This document shows positions 1,903-19,049 of a stretch of DNA of 23,229 nt, in pieces. Under the pieces are notes generated by a model that was not told the DNA's origin, searched no databases, and was given only the letters and a program-made list of their open reading frames with translations. The stretch is from a virus. Numbering within the stretch: the stretch's first letter is position 1; each line of letters starts with the position of its first letter. Made by a program: the position numbers and the translations under genes. The stretch lies in the IMG/VR virus record IMGVR_UViG_3300036790_000807, positions 1 through 23,229 of that record. One strand, given 5' to 3'.

Positions 1903-4878
1903 CTAGGCCGCGACTTGCGTGCCACTGCAGACGGAAATCCAGTGCGTGCCGTCGCAGAACACCTCGACGCCCGACCCAGCGCCGGCGGCTTCACTGGGCT
2001 TTCGCCCGTTGCTGACGAACGCCAACGAGCCGGCTGTCGTGGCGGCAGGCAGGGCCGCCACCGTATAGGTTGGAAGCACCGGAGCGCCGGCAAAATGCGG
2101 GTTGACGAAGTTGGTACGAAATACTTCGCGCCAGCACGACGATCCATCTGAGATGATATGATAACGGTCATTCTGATGCAACGCTATTGGTGAATTGTCG
2201 ATGCTGTCCGTGCCATTCGCTGCGATCGTCACCACGCCAGAGGCAAGATTGGAAAAGGTAAAGCCAGTCCCTGCTGCAACCGTGCTGGCGGCCGGCAGGG
2301 TGATCGTGTAGCTCGAGCCACCGACCAGGAAGATGATGTTGCCAGCGACGTAGTAGGGAAGCGTTGCGCTGGCAGAGTAAACGTTCTGGAACCCGACCGT
2401 AATGCCCTTGCCGACGACGTAGGACAGTGACCCCTGGTTCCAACGAAGAGTCGAAGTAACGCTGTCGTACGCCAGAGCGTTGGTATTGGTCGGCTCGAAA
2501 GCGATCCTGTGCCCTGAGGCCATCCGGATGGCCGCCGCGCCCGTCATCTGTTGAGCAGCAGTTGTATCGAGAACCGATGTGGAAAATGGAATCCCGATCG
2601 TGAACACTTGATAGGCATGACCTGTGCTGCCGGCGCTGAGATACACGCCGATTATCGTAGAGATTTCCACCGGCGCTCCGGAGAGCGTTGTCTGTCCCAC
2701 AACAAGGGATTGAATTTGCCGCACTTTCGCGTCATCCGGGCCGTTTCCGAACCAATCCATCTCAATGGTCAGCGAGGCGTTGGTGACGCTCGACGGTTGG
2801 CCCGTGGCGTCACGGTACTCCAGGCACGCCGCCCAAAGCTGCGGCTGCGGCAAGGTCTGGCCGCTAGAGTTGCTGCCGACGGATTGTCGGACCGTCTGTA
2901 CATAGCGCGCGACGTGTTGAGCAGGGGTTGAGGCGGACGGCGTCTGCACGCCGCACCATAGGAGACGATCGAGGCCACCCCAGATATAGTTGTTGGGGCT
3001 GTTGTAAATAATCGTGTCGTGGCGGGTATTGGTAGAAACAACACCGGTGCTGCCGCCGGAGTGGTTGACGATGTAAGCGGAGCGGGAAACCGCGAAATCG
3101 GTGGGTTCCGAAGCGCCCTGCGACGTCTCCGCACTAGCGCCGTTACTACCGATGACCAGCCCGGGCAGAACGAAGCTGGATGGCGACCCGCCACCTGGTA
3201 TCGCGTCGGCGAGCGAAGTCCCATTCGGCAACGTGGTGCCGTCAATGATCCACTTGACCCACTTGGTGAGTGCGATACCCCAATTGCTGGGGTTCTGTAG
3301 GTTGGTAACGCCGTTGGGCACGTAGATCACGGAGCCCGCCGGCGCGGCTTGATAGGCGGCCGTGAACGCCGCCGAATCATCCGTGGTTCCGTTCATCTGC
3401 GCGGAATATGGCGGAGACTTGACGTTTATGACTCCGGTGGGACCGGAACTGAAATCGACATATTGTTTGGTGGCGGCGCCCAGGGCGACGGATGGGTTGG
3501 CAGAAAGTGTGAGCGGTCCGATGAGCGTACCACCGGCCAATGGCAAAGTTGTTGCCACTTGGCCGTCCACATACTGCTTCGTCGCCGCTTGCAACGCTGA
3601 CGCGGGATTCGCAGCGAGGGTCAGCGGTCCGGTCAGCGTACCCCCCGACGTCGGAAGCCCGGTGACCGACTGGCCATCCACATACTGCTTCGTTGCCGCC
3701 TGCAGCGCCGATATAGGGTTCGCAGGCAAAGTTAACGACCCGGTTAACGTGCCACCGGCCAAGGGCAACGTTGTCGCAACCTGACCATCCACGTACTGCT
3801 TCGTTGCTGCCTGCAATGCCGCCGTAGGATTGGCAGCCAGGGTCAGCGATCCGGTTAGTGTACCTCCGGAGGTTGGAAGCCCGGTGACCGATTGGCTGTC
3901 CACATAATGTTTCGTGGCGGCCTGCAACGATGACGTCGGGTCAGTGGCCAAAGTCAAGATCCCAGTGAGGGTTCCTCCCGCTTTTGGCAAAGTCGTCGCA
4001 ACCTGGTTGTCCACGTACTCCTTCGTTGCCGCCTGCAATGCCGACGTCGGATCGGCTGCCAGCATTAACGGTCCGGTCAGCGTATCGCCATTGCGCAGCA
4101 CGCGCGTATCCACATACTCCTTTGTGGCAGCCTGCAGCGCGGCCGTCGGATCAGCCGCTAGCGTCAACGCTCCGGAGAGGCTACCACCCGACTTCGGCAG
4201 TACGGTCCCCACCTGGCTATCGACGTAGTTCTTCGTAGCAGCCTGCAAGGTCGTTGAGGGATCGGACGCCAGAACCAATGCACCGGTTAGCGTGCCGCCC
4301 GATTTCGGCAGTGCCGTGCCAACCTGGCCGTCAACATACTCCTTCGTCGCCGCCTGCAACGGCGTGACCGGATCGGCCGCCAGCGTCAATGTTCCCGTCA
4401 TGGAGCCGCCCGATGTGGGCAACGTAGCCGCAGCGAAGTCCGCAAGCTTGACGCTGTTCTTGGCGCCAGTCGGCTGTAACAGCATAGCCGAGGCACTGAT
4501 ATTCGCAACGCCAGGCAGTCCGTTCATGAACTGGGTATAGGTCACCGCGGTGTTGGTACCACTCTGCCCTAACGGCACCATATCGCCACTGGCAGGCACG
4601 GTCCCCGCTAGCAGGCTGCTTATCTGAAACGGAGTCGCCGCGGCCGACAGTGAGCCGCTGGCAAGCACAAGATTGGCACCTATTGCAATCGACTCGGGCG
4701 CGCCCGCTCCCGCGCTTATTCGACCAAGAAGGGTTCCACTGCTGGGGGCCAACTGCGCCTGAACGCCGGATAACACCTGGGCGCGCGTAACCTTGACGGC
4801 CGCGCCACTCTGGCTCACGACAAATTCGTCAGTGTCCGACGAGGCTGTTGCCTGTGCGAGCTGATCGATCGTTGGCAT
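1903..4878 (-). CDS. Long tail fibre / tailspike-like protein with nine 37-residue repeats (991 aa)
   Basis: This is a likely host-recognition fibre. Residues 1-150 carry an attachment-type region with three short modules also found in the 616-aa fibre. Residues 153-475 are nine tandem repeats with core GGTLTGPLTLAADP and AATK.YVD, the repeat type of long phage fibre shafts. Residues about 483-525 (GVINVKS..., TDDSAAF, VIYVPNG) resemble the start of a pectate-lyase-like beta-helix domain as in tailspikes. The middle and C-terminal parts are beta-rich, and the last 60 residues (NGRKPSE, GVEVFCDG, WISVCSG) form a compact end module. No catalytic residues can be assigned, so enzymatic activity is unproven. 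The ATG at 4878 has a GGAG about ten bases upstream. A 106-bp gap with no gene or clear signal separates it from the adaptor gene. Confidence 0.85.
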   Translation of the reverse strand: MPTIDQLAQATASSDTDEFVVSQSGAAVKVTRAQVLSGVQAQLAPSSGTLLGRISAGAGAPESIAIGANLVLASGSLSAAATPFQISSLLAGTVPASGDMVPLGQSGTNTAVTYTQFMNGLPGVANISASAMLLQPTGAKNSVKLADFAAATLPTSGGSMTGTLTLAADPVTPLQAATKEYVDGQVGTALPKSGGTLTGALVLASDPSTTLQAATKNYVDSQVGTVLPKSGGSLSGALTLAADPTAALQAATKEYVDTRVLRNGDTLTGPLMLAADPTSALQAATKEYVDNQVATTLPKAGGTLTGILTLATDPTSSLQAATKHYVDSQSVTGLPTSGGTLTGSLTLAANPTAALQAATKQYVDGQVATTLPLAGGTLTGSLTLPANPISALQAATKQYVDGQSVTGLPTSGGTLTGPLTLAANPASALQAATKQYVDGQVATTLPLAGGTLIGPLTLSANPSVALGAATKQYVDFSSGPTGVINVKSPPYSAQMNGTTDDSAAFTAAYQAAPAGSVIYVPNGVTNLQNPSNWGIALTKWVKWIIDGTTLPNGTSLADAIPGGGSPSSFVLPGLVIGSNGASAETSQGASEPTDFAVSRSAYIVNHSGGSTGVVSTNTRHDTIIYNSPNNYIWGGLDRLLWCGVQTPSASTPAQHVARYVQTVRQSVGSNSSGQTLPQPQLWAACLEYRDATGQPSSVTNASLTIEMDWFGNGPDDAKVRQIQSLVVGQTTLSGAPVEISTIIGVYLSAGSTGHAYQVFTIGIPFSTSVLDTTAAQQMTGAAAIRMASGHRIAFEPTNTNALAYDSVTSTLRWNQGSLSYVVGKGITVGFQNVYSASATLPYYVAGNIIFLVGGSSYTITLPAASTVAAGTGFTFSNLASGVVTIAANGTDSIDNSPIALHQNDRYHIISDGSSCWREVFRTNFVNPHFAGAPVLPTYTVAALPAATTAGSLAFVSNGRKPSEAAGAGSGVEVFCDGTHWISVCSGTQVAA
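3454..4422 (-). repeat. Nine tandem ~111-bp fibre-shaft repeats
   Basis: Nine coding repeats, mostly 37 codons with two shorter ones of 34 and 36, each encode L P x x G G x L x G x L x L x A x P x x x L Q A A T K x Y V D. Copies 6-8 are the most alike, including the Q[SV][VA]T[GT] linkers, which suggests recent duplication or recombination within the array. Unit number sets the shaft length in such fibres. This is a protein-coding repeat and not a CRISPR array. Confidence 0.9.
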
Positions 4879-11868: not shown

Positions 11869-12906
11869 TCACATGCCGACCGAAGGACCGGCAAACATCG
11901 GCCCAAGTCGGGGATCTACCGCCGTAATCCCCGCATGAGGCCGATTAACCTGCTCCTCGAAATACGCGGTCATCCATCGCCCCAATGCGCTCCCGTCCAG
12001 ATAAATGTTCGAGGCAACACTCGTCGCCGAAGTATTTTGCATGTGGCTTACGATTCGATTTTCTATTCCAGTTTGTGGCCGCTGTTGCAGCGGTGCAAAG
12101 GGGCGTCCACTCACCAGCTCTGGCGCCACCGTTGTGTTCGACAGCTGAGGCGATCGGAGAGCCGGCATGCGCATGGTTCGCTGCGCTTGCGGCGACCGTT
12201 GGCTCAATACAGGAGCTGCGCCGATGCTTGCCGATGGGTCGGTACCCCCCCGAAGAAATTGGCGATCGGCTCTGCCGTGCCGTGGCCCGGACGCCAGCGC
12301 GCCAATGCGCAAATGGATAAGGGGGTGCCCATCGACGCCTGGCGTGACTTCAGGTCCCTGAAGGACACGGTGCGATGGATCTGCGGTCGGGACCAACAGA
12401 CGAGCCATCGCGCGCAGCAAAGGTAACGCGGGATGCCAGATATTTCTCGATCGCGGACCAACGTCTCCTATGAGTTTAGGTTGTGTCATTGACTTGGCAT
12501 ATGTAATGGCTGGGTACATCAGTGCGGTACGAATTCGAGGCAAATTCACCGTCGGACCCGCCTGTCGTCGAGTAATTGGCGGTCGCGACCACGTGCGGCC
12601 CAATGCCATGCCCGGTAGCCGCTGTTCCACACCTATGGCTGCTTCCCTAGGGAGCCGGCGAGCGGAGACCAGCGACGGTAAATCCAGCCATCCTCGACGG
12701 GCCGTCCGCACGATCGACAGCATTTGGCGTGCCACCGCCCGCAGCGGCTGCATACCAACAACCGATGCAAATCGCCGCGAAGAAAGCTGGGAGGACGCTC
12801 CCAACGGTGCAGCGCGGCGTGACAACCCTTGCATACGGTTCGACGCCATTGACTCGTCTCCGCAGGCCAGCGTCACGAGGGAACTATCCAACGTAGTGTC
12901 TGCCAA
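11869..12906 (-). CDS. Short arginine-rich protein in the tape-measure position (345 aa)
   Basis: The gene sits where the tail tape-measure gene belongs: after sheath, tube and frameshifted chaperone and before the hub genes. The start is TTG at 12906 with AGGAG five bases upstream, overlapping the frameshifted chaperone frame by 34 bp. The protein is unusual. By count it has 40 Arg but only 2 Lys, against about 19 acidic residues, and no clear transmembrane segment. The last 45 residues (IYLDGSALGRWMTAYFEEQVNRP...) look like the conserved end of a tail protein. If it is the ruler, at about 0.15 nm per residue the tail would be only about 50 nm. The rest of the sequence is not recognised. A G7 run in the transcript (12245-12251) lies in the middle. 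The tape-measure call is therefore an inference. Confidence 0.6.
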   Translation of the reverse strand: MADTTLDSSLVTLACGDESMASNRMQGLSRRAAPLGASSQLSSRRFASVVGMQPLRAVARQMLSIVRTARRGWLDLPSLVSARRLPREAAIGVEQRLPGMALGRTWSRPPITRRQAGPTVNLPRIRTALMYPAITYAKSMTQPKLIGDVGPRSRNIWHPALPLLRAMARLLVPTADPSHRVLQGPEVTPGVDGHPLIHLRIGALASGPRHGRADRQFLRGGTDPSASIGAAPVLSQRSPQAQRTMRMPALRSPQLSNTTVAPELVSGRPFAPLQQRPQTGIENRIVSHMQNTSATSVASNIYLDGSALGRWMTAYFEEQVNRPHAGITAVDPRLGPMFAGPSVGM

Positions 12907-13390
12907 TCAAACTCCTGACCTTCTAGTTTTCCGAATACAACAACATAAGCCATCCGTTCATCGGGAGGCAGGGAAAACGCGACATCGAACGGCACCCCGT
13001 TCCTGACCAGATAAAGGCAATCGATCAGGTCGGGGTGCCGGGTAAGTTTCCCGCGCTGCGTACCATTTCAGCAGCGTTGCGCTCGGTCATCGGCAACAGT
13101 GCATCAGCAGCGGCCGCAATGCCAATCTCGCCAAGGCGTCCCACCATGGCCTCTATCTGCTGCTCAGTCGTTGGCGACGGAATGGGTACATCGTCAATTG
13201 CCACCACTGAACTCGCCAACATTGCCATGCCTAACCAAGCCTCGTTGAGGGCGAGGTCGGGGCCAGCCGCCTTGAATAGACGAAGCTTATCCAGCGCCGT
13301 CAGTCGGTGCAACGTGAGCTTGCGGCCCAAACGATCAACCACGGTTTCCCCTGCAGTTGCCGATTCGACAATACTGACCGACGGGCTCAT
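12873..13390 (-). CDS. Tail assembly chaperone, long -1 frameshift product (172 aa)
   Basis: Residues 1-115 are those of the short chaperone. At the AAC codon ending at 13046 the ribosome is predicted to slip back one base on G GGA AAC and continue for 57 codons (LTRHPDLIDCLYLVRNGVPF ... WIVPS) to a TGA at 12873-12875. The extra part looks like real protein, with VPFDVAFSLPPDE and AYVVVFGKLEG, and has no start codon near its beginning, so it can only be made by frameshifting. This corresponds to lambda gpGT and P2 E+E', which bring the tape measure and tube together during tail assembly. It overlaps the next gene by 34 bp. Direct proof would need the protein. Confidence 0.85.
12912..12916 (-). 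promoter_or_regulatory. Shine-Dalgarno AGGAG supporting a TTG start
   Basis: AGGAG lies five bases before TTG at 12906 and supports this rare start codon for the tape-measure candidate. The site is inside the overlapping frameshifted chaperone frame. Confidence 0.65.
12990..13052 (-). promoter_or_regulatory. Programmed -1 ribosomal frameshift signal
   Basis: In the transcript the slippery heptamer GGGAAAC (13046-13052) is read G GGA AAC in the zero frame, the X XXY YYZ rule. A 5-nt spacer follows. Then CGGCACCCCG (13031-13040) pairs perfectly with CGGGGTGCCG (12990-12999). Inside it, 13023-13029 pairs with 13002-13008 (seven pairs, one of them G-U), leaving a 14-nt loop. The zero-frame stop codon lies inside the inner stem. 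The heptamer differs from lambda's GGGAAAG only in the last base. Confidence 0.88.
13025..13390 (-). CDS. Tail assembly chaperone, short product (121 aa)
   Basis: This is a small, mostly helical cytoplasmic protein: VDRLGRKLTLHRLTALDKLRL, then LNEAWLGMAMLASSVVAIDD, then EQQIEAMVGRLGEIGIAAAADAL. It lies directly after the tube gene (TGATG overlap at 13390), the place of gpG (lambda), E (P2) or Mu gp41. Such proteins hold the tape measure and recruit tube subunits, and are absent from the finished particle. The zero frame ends at TGA 13025-13027, after the frameshift site. The ratio of short to long product is expected to matter for assembly. Confidence 0.82.
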   Translation of the reverse strand: MSPSVSIVESATAGETVVDRLGRKLTLHRLTALDKLRLFKAAGPDLALNEAWLGMAMLASSVVAIDDVPIPSPTTEQQIEAMVGRLGEIGIAAAADALLPMTERNAAEMVRSAGNLPGTPT

Positions 13391-13818
13391 CAGATCCGCT
13401 GCCTCCGCGTTGCAAAGAACTCGAGCTTCTGTTTCACACTTGCATCTCCCTTCCAGGTCCCGGCATTTACCAATCGGAAGGACACACCGTCATACTGGTA
13501 AGTGGACGTAGATCCATCCGTCTCAGCGATGTACTGATACATTGTTCCCGAGCTTGTACTACCGCCGTTATAGTACTGCTGCTCTGTGGCGGCAATGAAA
13601 TCATCTATGACCGAACTGCCACGTTCCACCTCAAAGCTTCCCTCCCAGCCCTTTGGCAGCTCGGCACCAAGATGGGTACCATCCAGCCGGCTCACACGAA
13701 CAGATTGAGTAAGCTGGCGGCTTTCGAAGCCGGTGACATGGGTCAAATCGACTCGTCCGAGTGGCCCCATGACCACCAGTTGAGTGTCGCGCCCAATCGA
13801 AAATGCGGTATATGACAT
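13390..13818 (-). CDS. Tail tube protein (142 aa)
   Basis: This protein forms the inner tube of the contractile tail. It is short and beta-rich: LVVMGPLGRVDLTHVTGFESRQ, then SRLDGTHLGAELPKGWEGSFEVERG, then GVSFRLVNAGTWKGDASVKQKLEFFATRR. The end of the protein has the K/W-G-D-x-x-V-K-Q pattern of tube proteins. Its place directly after the sheath is conserved. AAGGG lies about nine bases before the ATG, and only 12 bp separate it from the sheath gene. Confidence 0.85.
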   Translation of the reverse strand: MSYTAFSIGRDTQLVVMGPLGRVDLTHVTGFESRQLTQSVRVSRLDGTHLGAELPKGWEGSFEVERGSSVIDDFIAATEQQYYNGGSTSSGTMYQYIAETDGSTSTYQYDGVSFRLVNAGTWKGDASVKQKLEFFATRRQRI

Positions 13819-13830
13819 AGTAACGGCCCT

Positions 13831-15393
13831 TTATGCTGGTTGACCGCTCGGAAGTGTCTGGCGTGTTACCTGAACTGTCTGTCCCCCTTCAAGATTGACA
13901 ATGAATTTCTCGTTGATTGCTTGGTACTGAACCTGCGCATCTGACTGAACGTACCCCAGTCCAGTGCGTGATGCTGGATTGTTCGAAGTATCGCAGATTA
14001 CGCTAAAGGGCAGGCTGCCATCGGTGCTTCCCAGAATTCCTTGACCTAGCATGTTCTGCAGGAAGGATAACTGAGTCGCGCGTATCCTAAGGAACAAATC
14101 CGAGTTAATGACCTGTCCAACGTACTGCCCCATGCCTGCAGAAAGGGTCTCGGCAATGTAGTTGGTCACTCGAGTGTAGTTGTCGCCATTGGTAGCGACG
14201 TTTGAGGACGAATTATGCCCACCGCGAACACCCCAGAAGCTTCCTCCAGGCTGGGGGTTGCAGATCACATCGATTCCTGCCCCCAGAAGAACCGCCAGAT
14301 CTGCTGCCGAATAGGACGTACTTTGGCCTGATCCGGGATTACCTGATTTCTGGCTTCCGATAACACCATACAGTTGCTTATTCAGGCTGGATTGCTCCGG
14401 GGAGAGGTTCGCAAGGCGCCCGGCAACAAACCCCTGCGGCGAGACCAATCGTACGATGCTGTTAACAGCATCGGACCACCACAGCCAGTCACCGAACATC
14501 AATTTGGCGGAATAGCTGTCAAGACCGGCCTGCTGCTTAACTGCGACAGCATTCTGAATTGAGTCCCCTGCAGGGCCGGTAAGGATCATGTAGATGCCTT
14601 CTTGCAGGCCAAATTCAGCCTCCAAGGTCCACTGTGTGGAGTCATCGCAGTCGGCCAGCAGCGCAATACCACATCCTTGACCGCGCAACGCGTACATGCC
14701 ACTCCGCGGCGGAATATCCAAACCGACCAATTGGTTGGTGCCGACTCCCGTCGCACCGTCAGAGCCGGCCGAACTTGCGCCAAGCATCATGGAGAACGCG
14801 ATAGGAGTTGCAGTCGCACCTCCGGCATTGGCGACGATAAGTTGGGAAGGCCCGCGTTGAGGTCCCTGACCTTGATTGACCGCAGCCGCCAGCGCAGCCC
14901 AGAATGGCGCCCCGGTTCCACCAATATTGTCGTAAACCTCCGGTTGCACCCCGACGAGCCAAACTGTAAGGCGCCAGGTATTGCTCTGCGAACCCGGACC
15001 CAGCGTCAGGCTGACCTGATTACCCAATGAGCCGGTATAAAGCGCAGTGAAACTTACCGTGGTGCCCGGGACGATGGCCTGCGCAGCTGCGTCAGTGCCA
15101 TCGGTCACTCGCACGCATCGGAAATTCTGTGCTCCCTGCTGTACTGCCGTGGCAATCTGCGTTCCGGCATCATATTTTCTCGCGATGATCGGGCCGAAGT
15201 TCTGCGCATAGTCGGCCATCGTCGCAAGGATAACGGGTTGCCCGGCAGGTCCCCAGGAGGCCGTCCCGACGAGACCGACCACATTGGTCGGAACACCGTT
15301 CAAAATCAGATTTTGCGGCGGAACGATCTGGACATAAAGATCGGGTACGATCAATGCCGTAGTGTTTATACTACCCTGCTGAACAATAGGCAT
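13831..15393 (-). CDS. Tail sheath protein (520 aa)
   Basis: This is the contractile sheath subunit. Near the N-terminus it has VPTNVVGLVGTASWGPAGQPV, the hallmark opening of sheath proteins, followed by an NFGP motif. The C-terminal third has AGIDVICNPQPGGSFWGVRGG (the family's common ..G.n.i....G....WG.RT-like region), VTNYIAETLSAGMGQYV, and a last strand INEKFIVNLEGGQTVQV that would engage neighbouring subunits. The ATG at 15393 (MPIVQQGS) has GGAG ten bases upstream. A GTG three codons earlier would overlap the small upstream gene by a GTGA, but its ribosome site is poorly spaced. The presence of a sheath defines the particle as myovirus-like. Confidence 0.95.
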   Translation of the reverse strand: MPIVQQGSINTTALIVPDLYVQIVPPQNLILNGVPTNVVGLVGTASWGPAGQPVILATMADYAQNFGPIIARKYDAGTQIATAVQQGAQNFRCVRVTDGTDAAAQAIVPGTTVSFTALYTGSLGNQVSLTLGPGSQSNTWRLTVWLVGVQPEVYDNIGGTGAPFWAALAAAVNQGQGPQRGPSQLIVANAGGATATPIAFSMMLGASSAGSDGATGVGTNQLVGLDIPPRSGMYALRGQGCGIALLADCDDSTQWTLEAEFGLQEGIYMILTGPAGDSIQNAVAVKQQAGLDSYSAKLMFGDWLWWSDAVNSIVRLVSPQGFVAGRLANLSPEQSSLNKQLYGVIGSQKSGNPGSGQSTSYSAADLAVLLGAGIDVICNPQPGGSFWGVRGGHNSSSNVATNGDNYTRVTNYIAETLSAGMGQYVGQVINSDLFLRIRATQLSFLQNMLGQGILGSTDGSLPFSVICDTSNNPASRTGLGYVQSDAQVQYQAINEKFIVNLEGGQTVQVTRQTLPSGQPA

Positions 15394-15398
15394 CCTGC

Positions 15399-15548
15399 TC
15401 ACACTCCAGTTGCTGGCGGATTGGCCACCCGGACAACCGCATGTGCATGCTCACCATTGAGAATTTCAGAAATGCGCGCTGCGTCCGCTATGATATCGCC
15501 ACGAGAATAGGCTGCGAACGGCCTCACAACCACCAAATGGAATTTCAT
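15399..15548 (-). CDS. Small protein between head-tail joining gene and sheath (49 aa)
   Basis: An intact frame starts MKFHLVVVRPFAAYSRGDII and continues ADAARISEILNGEHAHAVVRV. It has GGAG five bases before the ATG and ends 5 bp before the sheath start. It fills an otherwise empty gap of about 160 bp in a packed operon. The pattern (VRPF..Y..GD.I.D...I..IL.GEHA..VVRV) resembles small proteins seen before sheath or tail genes of other phages. Function is unknown; a role in tail completion would fit the position. Confidence 0.72.
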   Translation of the reverse strand: MKFHLVVVRPFAAYSRGDIIADAARISEILNGEHAHAVVRVANPPATGV

Positions 15549-17726: not shown

Positions 17727-19049
17727 TCAGCCGATATGCTCGACAATCACTGCGCGCTTGAAGGCTGCGTTGGTCGCTGTCGGGATGGTCGTTGGATTGG
17801 TCGTCGTGTCGGACGGCGCGCAAAACCCACCAATCCAGTACCAAGACTGGGCAATGATCTGTTGCAGCCGGTCGATCGGCTCACGCGTCACCATTGCAAC
17901 GTTGTTCACGATGGATACGATTGAGTCCTTCGGGGCGACGTCATCGGCCCCCATTCCGGCGAAATCGCCCTCAACCAACGTGCCGCGTCCGCAGATCACC
18001 GGCCGGCGCACCATCAGGCCGGCCAGCGTCGGATGTGGCTGAACAAATGCCTCGGTAGTTGGAACAAAGCGGAGACCAAGAAAGTCGTTCGTCAATCCCT
18101 GCCGAAATACCTGATTGGCCGATGTCGCGCCCTGGAATAGCTGCTTGAAATCAGGGTCTGCAAACAACTGCCGTGCCGAGATGGGATCCAGATAGCAGTT
18201 ATAGACGCCATCGATTTCCGGCACGGCATTCGAGCGAAGTTTGGATACCGCATCGAGAAGACACGACATCGTAAGAGTGTCCCCGGCAACGATCAAGGAT
18301 GTATTTGACCGTTGAGACGGCCGGACGATTACAGATGCACTGGCTGCCGTGACGGTATTGCCCGCGGTGCCGTCGCTAACAGAGACATTGCCAGAAAATG
18401 TCAGTACACCTGAGACACCGTTCGGCGCGGTGGAAACGTTAGTTGCGTCGGCAGCGGCACCCGCCAGTGTGTAGGCATCAGCCCCAACGGTCACGGTCAG
18501 CGGACTGGTACTGCTCACTGACTGCTGCACGCCGTTGACAAAAGTCGTCTGAAATCCACGAATATCATCAACCGAGACCGCTGGACCGGCGCTGCCTAGC
18601 GTAATGCGGACCCGCGTATTGCCGCCAAAGTAAGCATTGAACAACGCATTTCGCGCCAGCTCGTCCAGACTGCGAGCCGCCTGCTCCCCATTGACATAGG
18701 CATTTTCGAGAAACTGTGATGCGATGCCAACTCGCGACGTGACCATGTTCAGGTCAGTGGTCGCCGCATAGTGATTTATTGTAATGGTGAATTGTTCGAC
18801 GCCCCAGTTTGTCGCCGTCAAACCGTTGTCAAAATTTGTGTTCGTGGCCGGAGGCAGCGGGATGGTTACCGTGGGTTTCAGGCCCGCACGGGTCTTGGTG
18901 AGCGTTTCACCAATACCAACAGCGATGTCCTCACGATCCGCGCACGCCCGGTAGCCGAGGCGTGACCGCAACGCCTGCTCGAATTCGCGCTCGAGGAATC
19001 CCTGCTGGATAATCGGTTGCAGCGCGGCGGGGAAGTTCTGAATTCCCAT
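17727..19049 (-). CDS. Major capsid protein, HK97-fold (N4-gp56-like?) (440 aa)
   Basis: This is the shell subunit. The N-terminus contains REFEQALRSRLGYRACADRED, the middle NHYAATTDLNMVTSRVGIASQFLENAYVNGEQAARSLDELARNALF (the long spine-helix type segment), and the C-terminus LDPISARQLFADPDFKQLF, FLGLRFVPTTEAFVQ, DSIVSIVNNVAMVTREPIDRLQQI and SWYWIGGFC. Residues about 155-255 are Ser/Thr/Val-rich and beta-like and probably an inserted domain on the outside of the capsid. AGGA lies seven bases before the ATG. There is no protease gene nearby, so maturation probably relies on the scaffold. The capsid role is secure; the subfamily is tentative. Confidence 0.85.
   Translation of the reverse strand: MGIQNFPAALQPIIQQGFLEREFEQALRSRLGYRACADREDIAVGIGETLTKTRAGLKPTVTIPLPPATNTNFDNGLTATNWGVEQFTITINHYAATTDLNMVTSRVGIASQFLENAYVNGEQAARSLDELARNALFNAYFGGNTRVRITLGSAGPAVSVDDIRGFQTTFVNGVQQSVSSTSPLTVTVGADAYTLAGAAADATNVSTAPNGVSGVLTFSGNVSVSDGTAGNTVTAASASVIVRPSQRSNTSLIVAGDTLTMSCLLDAVSKLRSNAVPEIDGVYNCYLDPISARQLFADPDFKQLFQGATSANQVFRQGLTNDFLGLRFVPTTEAFVQPHPTLAGLMVRRPVICGRGTLVEGDFAGMGADDVAPKDSIVSIVNNVAMVTREPIDRLQQIIAQSWYWIGGFCAPSDTTTNPTTIPTATNAAFKRAVIVEHIG

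Follow-up and report, generated by a model that had tools for sequence, protein, structure and literature searches.

A predicted programmed −1 frameshift in the tail chaperone gene of contractile-tailed phages and prophages of the Acetobacteraceae

The viral DNA record IMGVR_UViG_3300036790_000807 from IMG/VR (positions 1 to 23,229; this whole stretch of 23,229 nucleotides is called the window) carries a gene for a predicted tail assembly chaperone, and near the end of this gene lies what is almost certainly a programmed −1 frameshift site of the lambda G/GT type. The record is taken for a phage of acetic-acid-type bacteria, and the prediction extends to contractile-tailed phages and prophages of the Acetobacteraceae. 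It draws on several observations: a slippery heptamer; a −1 reading frame that is conserved as protein; selection on a downstream RNA stem; and a tail-chaperone fold in the upstream product.

The frameshift site

All features described here lie on the minus strand. The zero-frame short form starts at an ATG and comprises 121 residues (13390-13025), ending at a TGA (13027-13025). In phase with it stands the heptamer G_GGA_AAC (13052-13046), followed by the spacer TTACC (13045-13041), which is 5 nt long, or 6 nt when measured as far as the stem's conserved 9-bp core. The stem pairs a 5′ arm, CGGCACCCCG (13040-13031), with a 3′ arm, CGGGGTGCCG (12999-12990), and encloses an inner helix and loop (13029-13002) in which 13029-13020 pairs with 13012-13002. 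The zero-frame TGA falls within the first arm of this inner helix. In the minus-strand translation of 13390-12873, the −1 frame is open from 13067 and has no stop until a TGA at 12875-12873, so a shift would yield 115 + 57 = 172 residues. The extension, 57 codons plus the TGA, occupies 13046-12873.

Much of this had been put forward in a preliminary description made from the letters of the window. Its heptamer, spacer, 57-codon frame and product sizes (121 and 172 residues) all held when re-read and translated, as did its placing of the zero-frame stop inside the inner stem.

Conservation among relatives

Searches with the zero-frame protein gave 80 viral contigs, and searches with an alignment of the extension gave 80 bacterial genome contigs and 80 viral contigs; removal of duplicates left 191 distinct regions. 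A slippery heptamer joins chaperone to extension in all 191: GGGAAAC in 169, AAAAAAC in 20, and GGGAAAT and AAAAAAA in one each. In all of them the −1 extension is also open and conserved. One search pattern held the heptamer's own codons, so the count was repeated with loci chosen by the zero-frame profile alone. A scan with this profile matched 124 of 299 genomes from the family of Acidisphaera rubrifaciens; with loci from four further genomes, 94 loci were read, and a GGGAAA- or AAAAAA-type heptamer was present in 89. The loss of the heptamer and the stops in the −1 frame that the preliminary description had said to look for in relatives thus did not occur. On the tree, the GGGAAAC and AAAAAAC forms have switched at least four times, with no half-way mixture of GGG and AAA among them.

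Most hosts given in the records are Acetobacteraceae (Acidisphaera, Acidiphilium, Rhodopila and Acidisoma, along with many uncultured members). The chromosome of Limnoglobus roseus, a bacterium of a planctomycete genus (NZ_CP042425; loci L155, L244 and L246), holds two chaperone-extension cassettes with A_AAA_AAC and a largely intact stem. The range of the phage family, or that of its tail module, may therefore extend beyond the Acetobacteraceae.

The RNA stem

The stem of the window is paired at 10/10 positions. Its fold has a minimum free energy of −35.6 kcal/mol (z = −4.96), and none of 200 dinucleotide shuffles was equally stable. As a control for protein constraint, the −1 peptide was recoded synonymously with the codon usage of the family. 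This recoding abolishes the structure: z is −5.5 for the window, and averages −4.0 over 174 loci, with z < −1 in every one.

Nine of the ten outer pairs form a conserved core (13039-13031, GGCACCCCG, with 12999-12991, CGGGGTGCC), standard in 92-100% of 229 distinct sequences; the outermost, tenth pair is standard in only about half of the relatives' sequences. Wobble positions in the core are invariant, and silent sites of the stem are frozen. Valine is GTG in 184/184 sequences, against 41% among the family's other codons, and glycine is GGG in 179/183, against a usage of 26%. Two-sided changes that preserve pairing are found at 6/9 core pairs: C-G has become T-A in L074/L199; two pairs are inverted in L315, and two in L318; and further compensatory pairs occur in L288/L299, L303/L310 and L285. 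These comparisons show strong selection on the 9-bp outer stem at the RNA level.

The inner helix is conserved only in part. Several of its pairs form in 62-83% of the relatives' sequences, the innermost two in 26-48%, and only the pairs at region positions 26-47 and 27-46 exceed shuffles. The two-part nested stem of the preliminary description, with its perfect 10-bp outer helix, fits the window itself, but across the family the aligned sequences bear out only the nine outer pairs as a firm feature. Its claim that this nested stem is unusually elaborate is supported only in part.

A search of the window against Rfam, frameshift elements included, gave no match at the curated gathering score. 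An upstream stimulator resembling a Shine-Dalgarno sequence was also sought, and such tetramers were present in just 46/174 sequences. In two divergent loci with A_AAA_AAC (L280 and L281), the downstream hairpin has apparently been swapped for an unrelated strong hairpin.

The extension as protein, and other explanations

Among aligned relatives, the extension is conserved from its second codon onward, ahead of any usable start; residues K2, L3, R5, H6, L13, L15, G19, V20 and P21, among others, show little or no variation. Variation is greatest at third codon positions, first and second positions being largely fixed, and this pattern begins upstream of the GTG at 12995. (The leucine at codon index 12, for example, is invariant in 184/184, with a third-position entropy of 1.86 bits.) Because the zero frame has already ended there in most relatives, only −1 translation accounts for the codon pattern.

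The same pattern counts against a rival reading in which the extension would be a small gene in its own right, started internally at GTG 12995 or a later ATG and translationally coupled to the chaperone, the heptamer being incidental. The record of Komagataeibacter phage phiKX1, a direct relative, does annotate the extension as a separate open reading frame (ORF) of 59 residues from an internal ATG. Moreover, the in-frame GTG (12995-12993) is universal in relatives, the sole potential start in the extension of which this is true. However, this GTG lies in the 3′ arm and would sit buried in the 9-bp stem; its use would discard the codons between heptamer and GTG that are conserved as amino acids; no ATG is universal among the first 19 extension codons; and an incidental heptamer would hardly be kept in all 191 distinct relatives. 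An internal start is therefore very unlikely. The preliminary claim that the −1 frame lacks a start of its own near the shift holds, with the small amendment that the frame does contain this GTG, and an ATG further downstream.

Slippage by RNA polymerase rather than by the ribosome could in principle yield the −1 product, and relatives with AAAAAAC do contain a run of six A residues. The majority form, GGGAAAC, contains no run longer than three, and a folded, covarying stem 6 nt away fits ribosomal slippage; transcriptional slippage is thus a most improbable source. A sequencing error or decaying gene, with the frame change an indel artefact, is refuted: hundreds of assemblies made independently, and the genomes of named isolates, show this arrangement too. 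Nothing was found in its favour, and its likelihood is negligible.

In a model of the extension alone (predicted local distance difference test, pLDDT, 82.6), helices and a pair of strands make up a small domain. Compared with solved structures it gave no convincing fold (best Z 2.4). Pfam and NCBIfam yielded no credible match for either chaperone or extension, and the family-consensus cassette, searched as nucleotides against the phage collection, found nothing.

The upstream protein

The zero-frame protein matches PHROG 20383, whose function is unknown; among 53 aligned relatives, 25 also hit PHROG 508, "tail assembly chaperone", the best of them at E 1.6e-4. The AlphaFold2 model of the 121-residue short form has a mean pLDDT of 84.6. 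Its top solved structure is the HK97 tail assembly chaperone, 2ob9 (Foldseek E 0.1, probability 0.84; by VIA-align, Z 5.2 and a root-mean-square deviation of 4.3 over 97 aligned residues), followed by YqbN (3klu) and ORF19 of a PICI-like element (5ir0). Among viral structures, it matches Mu FS-gp41 and several proteins annotated as tail chaperones, among others. On this modelling, the upstream protein has a tail-chaperone fold. Together with the location of the gene among tail genes, these matches agree with the preliminary identification as a tail chaperone.

A model for chaperone frameshifting

Heptamer, extension and stem in the relatives, along with the fold, support the tail-chaperone frameshift that the preliminary description proposed. 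In the predicted mechanism, most ribosomes would read GGA-AAC and terminate at the TGA 18 nt on, releasing the short chaperone of 121 residues. A minority would halt at the stem while GGA and AAC occupy the ribosome, slip one base back onto GGG-AAA, and read 57 further codons to complete the long form of 172 residues. By analogy with lambda gpG and gpGT, the short form may coat the tape measure protein, and the extension of the long form may recruit tail tube subunits.

Some points weigh against this interpretation. Three of the 94 loci in the unbiased sample (L277, L316 and L320) have no recognisable slippery heptamer at the expected place, and two (L276 and L324) have CCCTTTG. Taken alone, the match to 2ob9 is weak by both its Foldseek E and its Z. 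Finally, a U UUA AAC variant, with AAC as second codon, showed about 2% shifting with queuosine-modified tRNA-Asn (PMC6787027), so the efficiency here could be low. A low percentage would probably suit a chaperone, given the 30:1 ratio of short to long form in lambda (PMC5009743).

Two further observations touch the heptamer. In L276 and L324, which are distant relatives, the −1 extension is still conserved where C_CCT_TTG replaces GGGAAAC or AAAAAAC; this is possibly a different slippery sequence. Absence of queuosine was considered as a reason for the AAC codon and rejected: tRNA-guanine transglycosylase (Tgt) is present in 59/60 host-family genomes sampled.

A stop codon beside the heptamer

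The common form of the site among relatives is GGGAAAC-TGA. In 148 of the 191 distinct loci the first zero-frame stop (TGA, TAA or TAG) adjoins the heptamer; in 41, including the window, it lies 18 nt on, and in two it lies 3 nt on. The window thus belongs to a group without the adjacent stop. Selection for this stop is visible in the codons of the −1 frame. Serine at the fourth −1 codon is AGY in 127/129 cases, against 35% of the family's serine codons (binomial p ~1e-54, ignoring relatedness), and the preceding leucine is CTG or CTA, which completes the stop, in 143/147 cases when the next base is A and in 5/40 otherwise. The adjacent-stop state has undergone at least 11 changes on the tree. 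The outer stem pair forms in 32/40 sequences without the adjacent stop, versus 53/132 with it. These figures are inflated by relatedness, and a role for the stop is accordingly offered as a hypothesis.

It is conceivable, though rather doubtful, that the adjacent stop is part of the switch in most of the family. Once AAC has been read, ribosomes would stall with the stop in their A site, and release factor would face direct competition from slippage back to GGG-AAA, where CTG is the next codon. The window's group would then be a natural variant that lacks the stop and compensates, perhaps by a longer stem. If so, the ratio of the two chaperone forms would be set by termination, and not by the stem alone.

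In pea enation mosaic virus, a stop codon near the site matters for frameshifting (PMC5009743), and in HIV-1 a stop that immediately adjoins the slippery sequence can be decoded ahead of slippage (PMC4373837). These cases show that a codon or stop beside a −1 site can influence shifting; they differ from the present one in that they concern RNA viruses and eukaryotic ribosomes.

Relation to known sites

The kind of site is well known from many tailed phages. Xu, Hendrix and Duda (2004, as cited in PMC5009743) documented the lambda G/GT frameshift (GGGAAAG) throughout tailed phages. As in lambda, the predicted −1 shift falls close to the 3′ end of a small chaperone gene, just ahead of the putative tape measure gene, and short and long forms would share a start. 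Here, however, the second codon is AAC rather than AAG, a strong 9-bp stem is conserved, the tail is contractile, and neither Pfam nor NCBIfam recognises the proteins.

Closer heptamers have also been published. In Burkholderia phage KL1 (gp18/gp19), GGGAAAC directly before TGA was predicted, with a predicted downstream stem-loop (PMC3483164); KL1 is a siphovirus of another host group with a longer extension, and the prediction concerned a single genome. Tail-chaperone sites have also been published for the Caulobacter phages phiCbK (AAAAAAC) and Colossus (GGGAAAC) (PMC3556154). They share with the present family both heptamers, alphaproteobacterial hosts and a chaperone gene ahead of the tape measure, which is putative in the present family, although they are unrelated siphoviruses and the account of these sites reports no conserved stem. 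GGGAAAC and AAAAAAC tail-chaperone sites are likewise published for the haloarchaeal viruses HCTV-1 and HCTV-2 (PMC5009743).

The phage collection contains two relatives, the Komagataeibacter phages phiKX1 and phiKX2 (LC644975, LC644976). In phiKX1 the site is A_AAA_AAC-TGA, with AAAAAAC rather than GGGAAAC; the GGCACCCCG/CGGGGTGCC stem is unchanged, and the extension is homologous. Its record leaves the frameshift unannotated and lists the two parts as separate hypothetical proteins, and the main text of the phiKX1 and phiKX2 paper makes no mention of frameshifting (PMC8566455). No description of a frameshift site in this family of Acetobacteraceae phages and prophages was found in the literature, and the site appears to be undescribed there.

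The annotation of a very common, almost undescribed prophage family can thus be corrected. The family also offers hundreds of natural variants of one cassette, which differ in heptamer (GGGAAAC or AAAAAAC), in stop position (0 or 18 nt) and in compensated changes of the stem. With these variants, one can test directly what an adjacent stop does to −1 frameshifting in bacteria.

Neighbouring genes

The tail genes of the window lie on the minus strand in the order sheath, putative tube, chaperone, and an ORF in the tape measure position. The sheath (13831-15402) is certain, matching PHROG 23 (tail sheath, E 6.7e-45), and marks the tail as contractile. The upstream neighbour of the chaperone (13390-13818; PHROG 12993, unknown function) is a putative tail tube protein, and the next ORF (11869-12906; likely start GTG 12876-12874; 336 to 345 residues) a putative tape measure protein; both are placed by gene order, and the latter has no family match.

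The extension stop overlaps the GTG of this next ORF as GTGA (12876-12873), and of 159 relatives in which an ORF follows, 95 show an NTGA overlap. Such an arrangement could couple the next tail gene's translation to ribosomes that have shifted frame; overlaps of this kind are common in phage operons, so this idea is given little weight.

Elsewhere on the minus strand, 17727-19049 encodes a candidate major capsid protein, with a sub-threshold match to the N4-gp56 capsid family. Within the minus-strand ORF at 1903-4878, which encodes a long tail-fibre-like protein, positions 3522-4421 carry a 111-bp repeat (37 residues, LTLAANPTAALQAATKQYVDGQ...).
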